Assembly (NCBI GenBank): GCA_029262795.1
Contig: JAJCYT010000036.1
Location: 186,001-250,000, forward strand
From: Candidatus Fraserbacteria bacterium
GTDB taxonomy: Bacteria; Bipolaricaulota; Bipolaricaulia; RBG-16-55-9; JAJCYT01
Length of the DNA: 64,000 nt
Reading direction: 5' to 3'
A model generated the notes under the pieces. It saw only the letters and a program-made list of their open reading frames with translations. It was not told the origin of the DNA and searched no databases. Below, one piece after another: positions 30,939 to 51,812 of this stretch (position 1 is its first letter; every line of letters begins with the position of its first letter). A program made the position numbers and the translations under genes.

Positions 30939-31634
30939 ATGAAAAAGATATTTGTAATTTGGGCCATGATTTTGCTGACAGGGTTTTCGGCAGGCGTTCA
31001 CAGTCAGCAGGCCACAGAAATTATTTTAGAAGAAGGCTTGGATGACTACGAAGGCACACGAGACACCACCATTTACGATGAATCGAGCAAAAGCAATGGC
31101 GGCGGGGCACATATGTTTGCTGGGCAAACGGTTCAGGGTTCTGAGCGTCGAGGGCTGATTTCGTTTGATCTGTCTCAAATTCCAGAGGGTGCAACCATTA
31201 CCGCGGCTTCATTGCAATTGACAATATCCAAAACCCGGGCAGGCGGCACAGATGTTTTCCTGCACCGACTGACAAAAGATTGGGGTGAAGGTGTACAGGA
31301 CGCTCCAAACCAGGAAGGTGGCGGCACGCTGGCGGCAGAAGGTGATGCCACTTGGAATGAGAACTTTCGAACGGATTCCAGTTGGGACAACCGGGGTGGA
31401 GACTTTATTGAAGCTGCAAGTGCTGAAGCCGTTGCCGGTGGACCTGACAGTCAACTGTTATTGGAGGGCGCTGGTTTAACTGCCGATATTCAAGCCTGGA
31501 TCAATGGTGAGGCGGACAACTTTGGCTGGATTTTAGTGGCAGATGGCACAGCCAAGCGGTTTCATTCATCGGAGAGTGAGATTGCTGAAACTGGCGAGAA
31601 ACCACGTTTGGTGATCAGCTATACCACCAATTAA
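30939..31634 (+). CDS. Secreted DNRLRE/CBM96-like domain protein, paralog 1
   Basis: A 231-residue protein starting MKKIFVIWAMILLTGFSAG after GAGAAGGAG. A signal peptide probably ends after VHS; the rest is one DNRLRE-type beta-sandwich. Family-like marks are DTTIYDESSKSNGGGAHMFA, RRGLISFDLSQIPEGATITA, SLQLTISKTRAGGTDVFLHR, ATWNENF and ADIQAWINGEADNFGW. Such domains bind carbohydrate or serve as structural extracellular modules. The protein at 32283 is clearly paralogous along its whole length. Role unknown. Confidence 0.85.
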   Translation: MKKIFVIWAMILLTGFSAGVHSQQATEIILEEGLDDYEGTRDTTIYDESSKSNGGGAHMFAGQTVQGSERRGLISFDLSQIPEGATITAASLQLTISKTRAGGTDVFLHRLTKDWGEGVQDAPNQEGGGTLAAEGDATWNENFRTDSSWDNRGGDFIEAASAEAVAGGPDSQLLLEGAGLTADIQAWINGEADNFGWILVADGTAKRFHSSESEIAETGEKPRLVISYTTN

Positions 31635-32282: not shown

Positions 32283-32975
32283 ATGCTGAAGAAATTGTCC
32301 GTTTTTATCGTTGTCGCACTGATTGCCTGGGTAAGCACTTCCGCTCAGGATACAACTGAATTGATTTTGGAAAATGGCGTCAACGATTATGAAGGCACCC
32401 GTGACACCAGTCTTTATTCTGAAAGCTCCAACAGCAATGGCGCAGGCTTTCATCTTTTTTCTGGTCAGACCAACCAAGGTGCGGATCGTCGTGCATTACT
32501 GGCTTTTGACTTGACCGATGTGCCCGATGGTGCAACCATTACGTCTGTTAGCTTGGATTTGACAGTGAGTAGAGCTAGACGAGGCGGAGATGTAACCATA
32601 AGTTTACACCGAGTTACCTCTGATTGGGGTGAAGGTGATGCTGATGCTGGTGGTCAAGAAGGTACAGGTGCTACTAGCCCTGACGGTGCAGCAACCTGGA
32701 ACGAAAATTTCCGCAACGAATCATCCTGGGAAAATGAGGGTGGCGATTTCTTAGCTGAAGCAAGCGCAGAATTAATTATTGCTCGTCAAGAAGGAGAAAC
32801 ATTTTCCTATTCTAGTGAAGGTTTGGTAGCTGACGTTCAGGCTTGGGTTGATGGCGAAGCTGATAACTTTGGCTGGATCATCATTGCAGATGGTTTGGCT
32901 CGCCGTTTCCACTCCTCCAATGGTGATGCCGCAGAAGGCCAAAAACCTCGTTTGGTGATTAACTTCACCAACTAA
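32283..32975 (+). CDS. Secreted DNRLRE/CBM96-like domain protein, paralog 2
   Basis: A 230-residue protein with signal peptide MLKKLSVFIVVALIAWVSTS, cleaved probably after TSA. It aligns end to end with the protein at 30939: DYEGTRDTSLYSESSNSNGA, RRALLAFDLTDVPDGATITS, GAATWNENFRNESSWENEGG, ADVQAWVDGEADNFGW and GQKPRLVINF. The AGGAGG ribosome site is strong. The pair looks like a local duplication now separated by arfB. A strong terminator follows at 33005. Confidence 0.85.
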   Translation: MLKKLSVFIVVALIAWVSTSAQDTTELILENGVNDYEGTRDTSLYSESSNSNGAGFHLFSGQTNQGADRRALLAFDLTDVPDGATITSVSLDLTVSRARRGGDVTISLHRVTSDWGEGDADAGGQEGTGATSPDGAATWNENFRNESSWENEGGDFLAEASAELIIARQEGETFSYSSEGLVADVQAWVDGEADNFGWIIIADGLARRFHSSNGDAAEGQKPRLVINFTN

Positions 32976-39082: not shown

Positions 39083-39514
39083 TCAAAAGCCTCTGCGATA
39101 ATGCCAAATTTGGGTAATATATCTGCCTGTTTCTGCCAATATGAAGGAAAAAGCAAAGTGGTGTGCAACAAACAAAGGACTTTCAAATTGTGAACTTGCG
39201 AAAGCACCATAAACGCCCAGGGTCACACCAATGACTAAAATGGTATAGGCCGTGCTGGAAGCTTTTAAATCGATGAGGCGATCGCGCTCATCAGTGGCTT
39301 GTTTTCGGTTAAATATCGCCAGGATAATTTGAGTACCTACCTGAATGACTATAAACAGAATTAGCGCTGGAATTGCAATTCCAAGCAGAAATGAGTTATT
39401 TGGTTCATCTGAGTCAAGCAAAATTTTATAGGCATAAAAAAAGTAATTGCCAAAAATCATGATCACACTAATCAATGTGAACCAAATCGTTCTTTCCTTA
39501 TATGTCATGTTCAT
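39083..39514 (-). CDS. Four-helix membrane protein partner of XRE regulator
   Basis: A 143-residue protein with about four membrane segments (TLISVIMIFGNYFFYA, LLGIAIPALILFIVIQVGTQ, AYTILVIGVTLGVYGAF, and a weaker VAHHFAFSFILAET). The connecting loop has RKQATDERDRLIDLKAS, a conserved-looking DERD motif of DUF2178-like proteins. Its function is unknown; it commonly occurs with a small XRE regulator, as here. Confidence 0.75.
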   Translation of the reverse strand: MNMTYKERTIWFTLISVIMIFGNYFFYAYKILLDSDEPNNSFLLGIAIPALILFIVIQVGTQIILAIFNRKQATDERDRLIDLKASSTAYTILVIGVTLGVYGAFASSQFESPLFVAHHFAFSFILAETGRYITQIWHYRRGF

Positions 39515-39738
39515 TTTTTACGCCTCCTAAGTACGCGATATTTAACTCGGTATAAAATTTAACATTCGTGGTGTGAATAAAAACTAACTCAATGACGAAT
39601 ATCTTTAACAGTATTGTTCTTTTCCTGTATATCATGTTCATTTTTGACTCCCATGAGTATGCTATATTTAACTTGATGTAAAATCTAACATCCATAGTGT
39701 AAATAAAAACTAACTCAATGTCAAGTATATTTAACATT
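39486..39738 (-). repeat. Diverged tandem duplication of a promoter and gene start
   Basis: Two ~125-bp blocks (39486-39608 and 39612-39738) align well: ATGTTCATTTTT, GATATTTAACT or CTATATTTAACT, GTAAAATCTAACAT-like and AAAAACTAACTCAATG occur in the same order in both. The left block includes the first codons of the membrane protein gene; the right block holds a relic of the same start (MNMIYRKRTI). ATATTTAAC-type motifs lie near 39537, 39599, 39663 and 39725, about 62 bp apart. Confidence 0.75.
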
Positions 39739-43605: not shown

Positions 43606-44517
43606 TCAACAACCATCGGTCTGAGGTGAGCCAGCGAAGTTGGGACACAAATCATCATCATCGGGAACGCCGTCGCCATCGCTGTCCGGTCCATCACTTT
43701 GCGTAGGTGGCCAAATAGGAGAGTAGCCAGAATCGCTGATCAGTTGAGCAATAACTTGATGTCCAGTGTCGTTTGGATGGATGCCATCAAACGTAATGTA
43801 ACCTTTATCACCAGGGTCTTCATCGCCATTGATGCCGTTAAAAGTAAGCGACACCTTGACCAGAATTACATTGTGTTCATTGGCCAGATTTTCCAGTTGC
43901 AGATTGATTTGATCAAAGTATGGTTTGAACACTTCAAAATCATTGCAGGACCTATCGCCACAATTTTCGTTGTCTGACCAGCTGTCGCTGTTGCGATCTA
44001 CTTTGACAAACGGATTGTAAAGATCAATCACGCGCAGCAGATGGCGGTTGATCTGTCTCAGTGACAATATTTGATCAAAGATGGCTTCCCAGTTGGTTTG
44101 AACTTCAGTCACGACATTTCTTAAACAGTCCTGATTGTCTGAGCCACCGCAGTTGCCATCAAGATAACGGAAGCGGGCTTGAATGAAATCATTGCCACCA
44201 ATCTGCCAGGTGACGATGCTGGAGTTTTGAATCGACGTTTGAAATGATTGTGTTCCTAGGCCATCAAGAAGGTTTTCACTTTCCCATCCATTGCGCGTTT
44301 TGTCGATGAGTTCCACATCAAACCCTGTATCAGCTTCTGTGTTGTTCAAGAAAAAACCAACATAGCTGCGCCCATCGTTGGAATAGCCTGCGGCAATAGA
44401 ATCCCCCATGGCGGTGTAGTAGACTTTTGGCTGAGTATTTTGGCTGCTGACAGAATTTGCCAATCCAATACTGAGAAACAAGAGGATGAATAAAATACGC
44501 GTGATAAAAACCTTCAT
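43606..44517 (-). CDS. Secreted SGNH/GDSL hydrolase with thrombospondin type 3 tail
   Basis: A 303-residue protein from MKVFITRILFILLFLSIGLA (signal peptide). The SGNH blocks are present: catalytic Ser in AMGDSIAAG, Gly in the second block, Asn in QIGGNDF, and Asp-His in FDGIHPNDTGH. The last ~25 residues (DSDGDGVPDDDDLCPNFAG) are a thrombospondin type 3 calcium-binding repeat, often a cell-surface anchor or spacer. Esterase or lipase activity on an unknown substrate is likely. Confidence 0.88.
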   Translation of the reverse strand: MKVFITRILFILLFLSIGLANSVSSQNTQPKVYYTAMGDSIAAGYSNDGRSYVGFFLNNTEADTGFDVELIDKTRNGWESENLLDGLGTQSFQTSIQNSSIVTWQIGGNDFIQARFRYLDGNCGGSDNQDCLRNVVTEVQTNWEAIFDQILSLRQINRHLLRVIDLYNPFVKVDRNSDSWSDNENCGDRSCNDFEVFKPYFDQINLQLENLANEHNVILVKVSLTFNGINGDEDPGDKGYITFDGIHPNDTGHQVIAQLISDSGYSPIWPPTQSDGPDSDGDGVPDDDDLCPNFAGSPQTDGC

Positions 44518-44573
44518 TAATCTATTAAAGCAAACCATGACATAATATTCCACAACCATGTAAAATAGGTTTC

Positions 44574-48855: not shown

Positions 48856-49238
48856 AAAACCTCCCACGGTTGGCAAGCAATTTGTTCCAGCTTTGATCTG
48901 GACGAGGCCATCTTGCCGGTTTTTATTCAAAGATGCAAAAACGAAATTTAAAGCGCTTTTTAATTGTTGAAAAACATTTTTGGAAAAATCTCAAAATGCT
49001 GATCATTTTTACCTCATTTTTGCATTCAGCTTCCATGAAAATTAGGTTCAAATCGTTATCTGTACGGCGTTTGAGCAATGATAAATAAATGATATTTGAC
49101 CACCATACTGTGACCACACAGCAAACGAAACTTTAAAAATTACAGGAGTCAAACATGAAACGACTGAACAAACAAAACGAAATTGAAAACGAAACAAAAA
49201 CAGACAAACAAACCAAACAATCTTTTAAGGAGTTTCAA
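48856..49238 (+). promoter_or_regulatory. Divergent upstream region of the acidic repeat protein
   Basis: AT-rich gap between divergent genes. An in-frame ATG at 49155 behind ACAGGAG would add 28 polar residues before the signal peptide of the next gene; the ATG at 49239 has its own AAGGAG. TTGACC at 49096 may be a -35 element but no good -10 follows at proper spacing. Confidence 0.35.
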
Positions 49239-50597
49239 ATGACGTTGAAAAAATTGATCTGTATGATGGTCGTAGCGGTGTTGATGATGGGCGCTTGTAG
49301 CATGATGAGCGAACAAATGGTGTTCGCTCAAGACGAATGCCGCCGAGAGTGCGAAGATGACCGTGAAGAAAATAAAGACACCAAAGAAGAGGAAAAGAAA
49401 GAAGAAGAAACCAAAGACGAAGAAAAAGAAGAAGAACCTGAAACCAGAGAACCCGCTCGCCCAGACCGTGAAGAAGAAGAGGAAGACGACACCACAGTGG
49501 ATGCGCCTACATCTCGACCCACTCCAACCAACGGCACAGGTTTTCCAACAGATGATGAAATTAAGGATTTATTGGCCAAGATTGATTGTATCTTCAACCA
49601 CCCAGATGATCCCGAAGTGTGCGATGAAGAAGACACAACCACGGCTGGCGAACCTGGCACAGGCTTCCCAACAGATGAAGAAATTAAAGACTTGTTAGAC
49701 AAATTGGTGTGTATCTCCAATCATCCAGACAATCCCGAAGTGTGCGATGAAGATGATACGTCCACGGCTTCCGAACCTGGCACGGGCTTCCCAACAGATG
49801 AAGAAATCAAAGATTTGTTAGACAAATTGGTATGCATCAGCAATCATCCAGACAACCCAGAAGTGTGTGATGAAGAAGAAACCACCTCTGGCAATGGTTT
49901 CCCAACGGATGAAGAAATTGAAGATTTGGTGAAAAAGTTGGCCTGTATCTCCAATCATCCAAACGATCCAGAAGTGTGTGATGAAGACGAAGAAGACACT
50001 TCCAGCAATGGACTTCCAGCCACAGCCACACTCGACGAAGTGATGGACAAAGTGGACTGCGTGCCACCCCGCTCACAGGACAACTGCGATGGCGACACGG
50101 CTGCTGAACCTGGCACAGGGTTCCCAACGGATGATGAAATCAAAGACTTGTTAGATAAATTGGTATGCATCTCCAATCACCCAGACAACCCAGAAGTGTG
50201 TGATGAAGAAGATACATCCACGGCTTCCGAGCCTGGTACAGGGTTCCCAACAGATGATGAAATCAAAGACTTGTTGGAAAAATTGGTGTGCATCTCCAAT
50301 CACCCAGACAACCCAGAAGTGTGTGATGAAGAAGATACATCCACGGCTTCCGAGCCTGGTACAGGCTTCCCAACGGATGACGAAATTAAGGACTTGTTAG
50401 ATAAATTGGTGTGCATCTCCAATCACCCAGACAACCCAGAAGTGTGTGATGAAGAAGATACTTCCACCGCTTCCGAGCCTGGCACAGGGTTCCCAACGGA
50501 TGATGAGATTAAAGACTTGTTGGAGAAATTGGTGTGCATCTCCAACCATCCAGATGATCCAGAATCCTGCAACGAAGAAGACGAAGATGACGAATAA
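49239..50597 (+). CDS. Secreted acidic protein of ~41-residue cysteine repeats
   Basis: From 49239 it opens MTLKKLICMMVVAVLMMGAC, a signal peptide with possible lipobox (MGAC). An acidic Glu/Lys/Asp-rich stretch (~85-115) follows. Then come eight near-identical ~41-residue units plus one degenerate unit (NGLPATATLDEVMDKVDC). Each unit is GFPTDDEIKDLLDKLVCISN, then HPDNPEVCDEEDTSTASEP: a helix and two cysteines 12 residues apart, very acidic. No known repeat family comes to mind; calcium or metal binding or a surface spacer are guesses. Repeat DNA is ~123 bp per unit with near-identity between later units, indicating recent expansion. Confidence 0.7.
   Translation: MTLKKLICMMVVAVLMMGACSMMSEQMVFAQDECRRECEDDREENKDTKEEEKKEEETKDEEKEEEPETREPARPDREEEEEDDTTVDAPTSRPTPTNGTGFPTDDEIKDLLAKIDCIFNHPDDPEVCDEEDTTTAGEPGTGFPTDEEIKDLLDKLVCISNHPDNPEVCDEDDTSTASEPGTGFPTDEEIKDLLDKLVCISNHPDNPEVCDEEETTSGNGFPTDEEIEDLVKKLACISNHPNDPEVCDEDEEDTSSNGLPATATLDEVMDKVDCVPPRSQDNCDGDTAAEPGTGFPTDDEIKDLLDKLVCISNHPDNPEVCDEEDTSTASEPGTGFPTDDEIKDLLEKLVCISNHPDNPEVCDEEDTSTASEPGTGFPTDDEIKDLLDKLVCISNHPDNPEVCDEEDTSTASEPGTGFPTDDEIKDLLEKLVCISNHPDDPESCNEEDEDDE
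49533..50585 (+). repeat. Coding tandem repeat array, ~123-bp unit
   Basis: Eight full units and one degenerate unit (near 50010-50105). Later units share long identical stretches such as TTGGTGTGCATCTCCAATCA, while the first and fourth are more diverged, the pattern of expansion by slippage or unequal exchange at the 3' end. Confidence 0.85.
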
Positions 50598-50636
50598 AGT
50601 TTAAAACCGAGAGAAAGTAAACCTCCTAAAGCTCAA

Positions 50637-50679
50637 CGAAGACAGGGTGCGCTCATGCGTGCCCTGTCTTCGTTTTTTG
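50637..50679 (+). terminator. Strong intrinsic terminator
   Basis: CGAAGACAGGG pairs with CCCTGTCTTCG, extended by G-U and C-G pairs to a TCAT loop and followed by six T's; it ends the repeat-protein gene. Confidence 0.88.
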
Positions 50680-50792
50680 CTCCACAAAATCCTCTTGTTA
50701 TTACATGGCGTGTTGAAAGTATTGATTTATTGACCCTAATATGCAAAATCGGTATAATGTTTTGACTGATTGAATTGGGTTAAGGAGTCCCT

Positions 50793-51446
50793 ATGGGTGG
50801 GTTGTTTCGGGTGTTCAGGTTATCCGCTATCGGTGTTTTCTTTGCTGGGATTATTTCAGTGGTGCAAGGGTGCTCTTTGAAGGAAGGTTCGCTGTTGGCC
50901 GCCCTACTTTTCTTGCTCAATTTTTGCTCTTTGCCGGATGCAGAAACAGTCTCCACGCCCACATGTCCACCAGTGTGTCAACTTTTGCTAGGAAACTCGT
51001 CTGTGACTATAAATGCAATTGCCAACTTCCCTGCAGGCCGATTAATAGCTGATACCACCAACCCTGCAGCGAGCATAGGTACGGTTAAGCAATTTACTTT
51101 TGAAGTTGATTCGATCAATGGGGGCGTGGTCGATCTTGTCATTCTGAGGTCAGTTGGGGGAAATGATTATCAAATTCTTGGGGTCGAAGCCTTTTCGATC
51201 ACCGCAGTTTTATGTCCAGTAAATGTATGCACTGTTGACACATCCGGAATATCTGTACAAAGTGGCGATCTTGTAGGCATCTTCCGTCGAAATGGCGGAC
51301 CTGTATTGCCAATGCCGGTGGGTAATGCGCCAATAGGAAGCCAGCTATCGGACAATTTTGTAGACGCCGATATATTTGTCGGAAATACCATAACGATAGG
51401 ATTCACATTTAGTAATTTCATACCGGTGGCAGCCCTTGGAGAATAG
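50793..51446 (+). CDS. Putative lipoprotein, unknown
   Basis: A 217-residue protein with an N-terminal hydrophobic segment (LSAIGVFFAGIISVVQGC) ending in a lipobox-like VQGC, followed by a second hydrophobic stretch (SLLAALLFLLNFCSL). TPTCPPVCQLLLG holds a Cys pair. The rest is strand-rich with a repeated pattern (SVTINAIANFPAG, FTFEVDSINGGVVDLVI, GISVQSGDLVGIF, NTITIGFTFSNFIPVAA). It lies between the repeat gene and a broken copy of that gene's 3' end. Family not recognised. Confidence 0.6.
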   Translation: MGGLFRVFRLSAIGVFFAGIISVVQGCSLKEGSLLAALLFLLNFCSLPDAETVSTPTCPPVCQLLLGNSSVTINAIANFPAGRLIADTTNPAASIGTVKQFTFEVDSINGGVVDLVILRSVGGNDYQILGVEAFSITAVLCPVNVCTVDTSGISVQSGDLVGIFRRNGGPVLPMPVGNAPIGSQLSDNFVDADIFVGNTITIGFTFSNFIPVAALGE

Positions 51447-51516
51447 CATTTCGTAAGAGCGATCTTTGAGGATTGGGAATATGAATGATGATTTTGCTCC
51501 AAGCGCTTGCCTGACA

Positions 51517-51735
51517 TGATGAATCAAAGACTTGTTAGACAAGTTGGTATGCATCTCCAATCACCCAGACAACCCAGAAGTGTGTGATGAAGAAGATACT
51601 TCCACGGCTTCCGAGCCTGGCACAGGGTTCCCAACGGATGATGAAATTAAAGACTTGTTGGAGAAATTGGTGTGCATCTCCAACCATCCAGATAATCCAG
51701 AAGTGTGCGACGAAGAAGACACCAGTGACGAATAA
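51517..51735 (+). pseudogene. Truncated 3' copy of the acidic repeat gene
   Basis: Begins abruptly inside a repeat unit and carries two units (IKDLLDKLVCISNHPDNPEV, then CDEEDTSTASEP and one more) to a TSDE stop. At its start the original GATGAAATC reads GATGAATC, a one-base loss that brings a TGA in frame just before; there is no signal peptide or ribosome site. The first ~30 bases after the stop (AAAGTTTAAGACCGAGAGAAA) match those after the full gene, so this is a copied gene end. Confidence 0.8.
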
Positions 51736-51770
51736 AGTTTAAGACCGAGAGAAACTCAGACTCTATAAAT

Positions 51771-51812
51771 GAAGAAGGGGCAAGAAAATACTTGCCCCTT
51801 CTTCATGTTTTT
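51771..51812. terminator. Intrinsic terminator, usable in both directions
   Basis: GAAGAAGGGGCAAG pairs perfectly with CTTGCCCCTTCTTC around AAAATA, with a short T-run on the plus strand. It separates the repeat locus from the convergent methyltransferase. Confidence 0.85.

Follow-up and report, generated by a model that had tools for sequence, protein, structure and literature searches.

The gene at positions 49239–50597 encodes a predicted exported, strongly acidic, bead-string protein, and a broken copy of its 3' end lies downstream of a neighbouring lipoprotein gene. With moderate confidence, this arrangement is best explained by an orphan gene that grew by unit multiplication and whose 3' end was copied in a segmental duplication, the copy then being cut upstream. 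The locus looks like a case of ordinary repeat-driven gene evolution and not like a new mechanism.

The window, i.e. the whole stretch of 64,000 nucleotides analysed here, corresponds to positions 186001–250000 of a 305,586-base contig (C36). The genome is represented by 43 contigs with an estimated completeness of 92%. Its size of 4.05 Mb compares with mostly 1–3 Mb for the other genomes compared in the phylum. The 100 phylum genomes used for comparison, the source included, all belong to the same class, and the source is the sole representative of its family. The best named relative of the DNA polymerase I encoded in the window is from Candidatus Bipolaricaulota (48% identity), while matches from other phyla share 42% identity at most, save for one short-segment match of 45%. 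On this basis, the organism is a probable member of the Bipolaricaulota with an unusually large genome. Several other features were observed in the window. Two adjacent paralogous exported proteins (RDTTIYDESSKSNGGG and RDTSLYSESSNSNGAG) are encoded about 650 bases apart at 30939–31634 and 32283–32975. An intergenic, AT-rich sequence of 126 bases is present in two head-to-tail copies at 39489–39736. Also, an exported protein named by reading as SGNH-hydrolase-like, with a thrombospondin type 3-like acidic end (DSDGDGVPDDDDLCPNFAGSPQTDGC), is encoded on the minus strand at 43606–44559. All features of the repeat locus described below are on the plus strand.

The repeat gene is an open reading frame of 452 codons for amino acids, counted from the ATG at 49239, with AAGGAG located 5 bases upstream of it. 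This start is uncertain because an alternative in-frame ATG at 49155, 28 codons upstream, is also preceded by a Shine-Dalgarno-like AGGAG. The protein computed from the translation has a pI of 4.05, consists of Asp and Glu by 31%, and contains 22 Cys residues and neither Trp nor Tyr. A signal sequence with a hydrophobic core (49239–49331) was read by eye from the translation. It includes a lipobox-like MMGAC at residues 16–20 (VLMMGAC fits a permissive lipobox pattern) and, 11 residues further on, VFA/QDE, which could instead be a signal peptidase I site; both were also recognized by eye. The following segment, 49332–49538, is a charged low-complexity linker of Glu, Lys, Asp, and Arg (46% acidic).

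Repeat alignment divided the remainder of the protein into nine units, namely eight of the GFPTDDEIKDLLDKLVCISNHPDNPEVC type (36–41 residues) and one degenerate unit; this number, like the broken copy described below, rests on a draft assembly of 43 contigs, and short tandem repeats are prone to mis-assembly. Units 1–4 (49539–50006) are of the GFPT type and comprise 41, 41, 37, and 38 residues. The degenerate unit 5 (GLPATATLDEVMDK...; 50010–50117) is followed by units 6–9 (50118–50594), the last of which is a distinct terminal unit. The units start at residues 101, 142, 183, 220, 258, 294, 335, 376, and 417, which gives spacings of 41, 41, 37, 38, 36, 41, 41, and 41 residues, and the last unit is 36 residues long. 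The pattern GFPTD-E-I-K-DLL-KLVCISNHPDNPEVCDE is present in eight units. Unit 5 (GLPATATLDEVMDKVDCVPPRSQDNCDGD) shares only 39% identity with the type unit, but retains G, P, K, and both cysteines. The Cys pair of each unit is spaced by 11 positions (C-x10-C). The original prediction of eight near-identical units of about 41 residues with Cys pairs was thus correct with regard to near-identity at the protein level, but the units number nine, vary between 36 and 41 residues, and are less alike as DNA.

Indeed, unit 1 differs from units 6–8 at 21–23 of 90 DNA positions. Units 6, 7, and 8 are the most alike, with 4–7 differences per 90 positions, and appear to be recent. When the first 30 codons of all units were compared and pooled, synonymous differences had a proportion of 0.56 and non-synonymous ones of 0.067, resulting in a pN/pS of 0.12, a value that is descriptive only because pairwise unit comparisons are not independent. 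Between unit 1 and several other units, synonymous sites are near-saturated at a dN of about 0.1. This combination of low pN/pS and near-saturated synonymous sites shows that purifying selection holds the protein sequence of the units and that the array includes some old ones.

An AlphaFold2 model of two units (pTM 0.32), computed from an alignment of six windows, all taken from the repeat protein itself, placed helices at residues 5–20, 25–28, 46–61, and 66–69. Each unit was thus modelled, at moderate confidence, as a 16-residue helix plus a 4-residue helix with disordered linkers; pLDDT values were mostly 70–84, falling below 50 in the linkers. The long helix contains Cys 17 and the short helix is the site of Cys 28, which makes a disulfide between both cysteines of each bead plausible in this model.

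The repeat was absent from the 99 other genomes of the phylum. It was also not found in a pattern scan of 84,980 species genomes, which is sensitive only to relatives keeping the 10-residue patterns, and the protein had no match among IMG/VR viral contigs, phages, and plasmids. Single units did not match any Pfam model, no credible above-threshold family was revealed in Pfam or NCBIfam, and the unit profile retrieved nothing from the PDB up to an E-value of 10. The full-length protein did exceed the Pfam cut-offs of UBN_AB, Soyouz_module, and CLIP; these hits are many weak matches summed over the repeats, and no stretch passes alone. PDB matches at an E-value of 0.5 (colicin E7 immunity protein, P450) were regarded as chance. 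Judged by these searches, the protein appears to be an orphan acidic repeat protein with predicted export. The original prediction had described the unit as unfamiliar, which agrees with the lack of a credible family in Pfam, NCBIfam, and the PDB. It had also named the same arrangement in distant species as evidence against its reading; the repeat occurs in no other genome searched.

Some partial likenesses to known proteins were noted. A C..PE.CD..D-like stretch in the unit resembles Cu-binding_MopE (PF11617), with E-values of 0.02–0.04 for two-unit stretches. Such a stretch scored 14.7 bits, which is below the cut-off of 27, single units gave no match, and the repeat unit has an extra long helix compared to the 30-residue motif of this family. 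A search for the PF11617 motif in this genome gave no match, though the control was equally silent. The helical stretch DEIKDLL.KLV resembles one helix of colicin/pyocin immunity proteins (PF01320; E-values of 0.004–0.06 in Pfam and 0.49 in the PDB). Membership in PF01320 was rejected and the match ascribed to chance: it reached 13.9 bits versus a cut-off of 21.2, covered 25 of 82 positions, and was accompanied by no shared context. In its general layout, the protein is like bacterial tandem-repeat surface lipoproteins and adhesin-like proteins, with a signal sequence, a low-complexity spacer, and head-to-tail units of about 40 residues among which recent copies are the most alike; no homology is implied. 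Unlike these proteins, it has units that are short-helical, Cys-paired, and extremely acidic instead of beta-rich, lacks a C-terminal anchor, and matches nothing in Pfam, NCBIfam, or the PDB. Searching the literature for surface lipoproteins whose repeats vary in copy number returned nothing.

DNA self-comparison revealed two direct repeats. The left one (50377–50616) comprises the end of the unit 8 region, unit 9, the stop codon, and the 3' tail; the right one (51516–51754) is the broken copy of the last two units, the stop codon, and the 3' tail. They share 92.1% identity over 241 bp (E-value 2e-94), and both units in the broken copy match the repeat profile at E-values of 8e-22 and 3e-22, so that its similarity to the repeat gene is far beyond chance. 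Homology of both copies runs through the stop codon and the 3' tail AAAGTTTAARACCGAGAGAAA and then ends. This tail occurs at only these two sites in the whole genome, even when up to three mismatches are allowed. One base is missing at the 5' edge of the broken copy, where ATGATGAATCAAAG at position 51517 corresponds to GATGATGAAATCAAAG in the intact unit 6. No in-frame start with a ribosome site and no signal peptide were identified in the broken copy; its mechanical open frame of 67 codons begins at a TTG within a unit. The tails encoded by the two ends differ (DDPESCNEEDEDDE versus DNPEVCDEEDTSDE).

The last unit of the broken copy is closest to unit 9 (6 of 90 positions differ), while unit 9 differs from all other units at 15 or more positions. 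Its partial first unit is closest to units 6 and 8 (4 and 5 differences, respectively, in 99 positions), with linker bases as in unit 8. The match to unit 9 together with the unit 8 linker shows that position was kept and that the copy derives from the gene's own 3' end. Thus, the broken copy represents a duplicated 3' end of the repeat gene. Unit 9 and its copy show six differences that can be polarised against the other units, and every one of these falls on the side of the intact gene; the broken copy therefore retains the older state.

The two direct repeats enclose a lipoprotein gene. A terminator-like hairpin of 18 pairs with a T tail (50635–50674), found by hairpin search, lies between this gene and the repeat gene, and a motif search identified a strong promoter-like site, TTGACC-17-TATAAT (11 of 12 positions), at 50730–50758. 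The gene itself (50793–51446) encodes a protein of 217 amino acids with the lipobox VVQGC. The product qualifies as a bacterial lipoprotein, as it carries VVQGCS, the Cys of which is the only invariant column among 19 aligned relatives within this genome. It has no match in Pfam or NCBIfam, and its structure model (mean pLDDT 39.7) was of too low confidence for use. A second terminator-like hairpin (16 pairs; 51769–51806), unlike the first in sequence, was found by the same hairpin search downstream of the broken copy. This order of elements, i.e. a terminator, a lipoprotein gene, and another two units that share their downstream bases with the repeat gene, as well as the bracketing of the lipoprotein gene by homologous direct repeats with a broken downstream copy and the one-base loss at the junction, had all been described in the original prediction and were confirmed here.

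No support was found for the further idea of a lipoprotein segment that had been inserted in one piece. A whole-genome DNA search detected no other copy of the segment, which rules it out as a repeated mobile unit, and only its N-terminal protein module recurs. The region 50617–51515 does not resemble a transposon or an integron cassette, given that no inverted repeats and no recombinase gene were found between 50.6 and 51.5 kb. A 3'-end duplication whose copy then lost its 5' part explains the same anatomy as an insertion. In one specific form of insertion, which is quite unlikely, a DNA circle with the lipoprotein gene and a 3' piece of the repeat gene would have entered the resident repeat gene through a single homologous crossover. 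This route does predict the exact geometry, in which left homology ends in the 3' flank, right homology ends within the coding sequence, and loop-out can occur in frame, and the lipoprotein family is scattered over at least 13 contigs. However, this 1.1 kb contains no replication, mobilisation, or recombinase gene, the segment lacks another DNA copy in the genome, the repeat protein is unmatched in phages, plasmids, and viral contigs, and the same geometry results from duplication plus deletion.

A fairly unlikely history is that two complete tandem repeat genes once flanked the lipoprotein gene and that the second of them lost its 5' part by deletion, leaving a terminal unit that keeps the older state. 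Agreement of the broken last unit with the consensus at all six polarisable sites is what would be seen in a once functional gene, the junction offers only a few bases of possible microhomology, and tandem gene copies do occur elsewhere (e.g., L024 1021–1749 and 1772–2505, 82% identity). Nevertheless, no trace of a second signal sequence or linker was found between 51447 and 51515, and divergence of the two 3' flanks sets in right after 22 bases, apparently the end of the duplicated piece. A repeat-induced misjoin that placed a second set of units behind the lipoprotein gene is improbable, even though tandem repeats of 123 bases with about 92% identity in a draft genome invite such errors: the copies differ at many positions, downstream sequences and terminators differ as well, and the right copy is cut at a clean point with a frameshift, while a misjoin would not invent diverged units. 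Hardly any weight can be given to the view of the broken end as a silent cassette that feeds the expressed C-terminus by gene conversion. The broken copy has kept an open frame of 67 codons, its evolution has not outpaced that of the expressed copy, and DDPESCNEEDEDDE and DNPEVCDEEDTSDE would provide alternative tails, but there is a single silent copy and the open frame is explained by its short age and lack of constraint.

The first 48 or so residues of the lipoprotein (R-YSSVGVFFAGII-VIQGC[ST]-x-REG-LLLLLLQFCSG) are shared with about 27 further places, which are spread over at least 13 contigs of the genome. This module is made up of the lipobox and a second hydrophobic stretch, LLLLLLQFCSG or LLLLSGGGG (window positions 50793–50936; L013–L025). 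It was absent from the 99 other genomes of the phylum at an E-value threshold of 0.001, and among the members scanned it gave no hit to a Pfam or NCBIfam model. The passengers attached to it are unrelated and include YWTD/LDL-receptor-B or NHL beta-propellers, a PKD domain, InlB-B-repeat-like domains, or unmatched sequence. Within a gene cluster on contig C21, neighbours share 84–90% identity over 136–159 bp in the DNA that encodes the module, while the passengers are unrelated (L013 4917–5075, 8481–8638, and 7742–7877). Near-identical module DNA in front of unrelated passengers points to shuffling of 5' ends by recombination, and the pattern on C21 looks like that left by 5'-end exchange or gene conversion. 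Arguably, this shared lipoprotein module is a more unusual feature than the repeat gene.

Some other members of the module family deserve mention. One module gene ends after about 58 codons (L022 1635–1808; C27:220165–220272), and stretches related to it at 88% are located nearby (L022 2778–2950 and 3489–3661), possibly as decayed module genes. Another module protein has in-gene tandem repeats of about 144 bp, which are 82% alike and encode beta-propeller-like units (L016 2277–3115).

In the account that we favour, the repeat protein would be exported and probably anchored in the cell envelope. Its layout would be that of a signal sequence and a charged spacer followed by nine beads, each with a long and a short helix, joined by flexible linkers of Asp, Glu, Ser, Thr, and Pro. 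The bead cysteines may form disulfides outside the cytoplasm, and the acidic beads may serve as a flexible extension or a cation-rich spacer at the cell surface. Slippage or unequal recombination would have multiplied the units, units 6–8 being the most recent. A segmental duplication would then have copied the last two units, the stop codon, and the 3' tail. The copy would have lost everything upstream and is now presumably untranslated behind a separate lipoprotein gene with its own putative promoter and terminator. Elsewhere in the genome, surface genes are also repeat-rich and recombining, as seen from tandem gene copies, in-gene repeats, and near-identical 5' modules.

The computed product of crossing-over between the copies lacks 1,138 bp, and the frame of the repeat gene stays intact. 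Such recombination would loop out the lipoprotein gene and alter the C-terminus encoded by the repeat gene only slightly. There is a very slim chance that the broken 3' end has been maintained as a partner for crossing-over with the intact gene, which would release the lipoprotein gene in a circle and exchange the C-terminus of the repeat protein. The locus would then act as a surface switch with two states that needs no dedicated recombinase.

With this protein, an unnamed repeat family, so far found in one genome of a poorly studied phylum, joins the secreted acidic repeat proteins. The locus offers a concrete site where crossing-over of the duplicated ends would remove a lipoprotein gene and spare its neighbour. 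The N-terminal module, which stands in front of unrelated passengers at about 28 places in the genome, suggests that surface proteins have been shuffled wholesale in this lineage.
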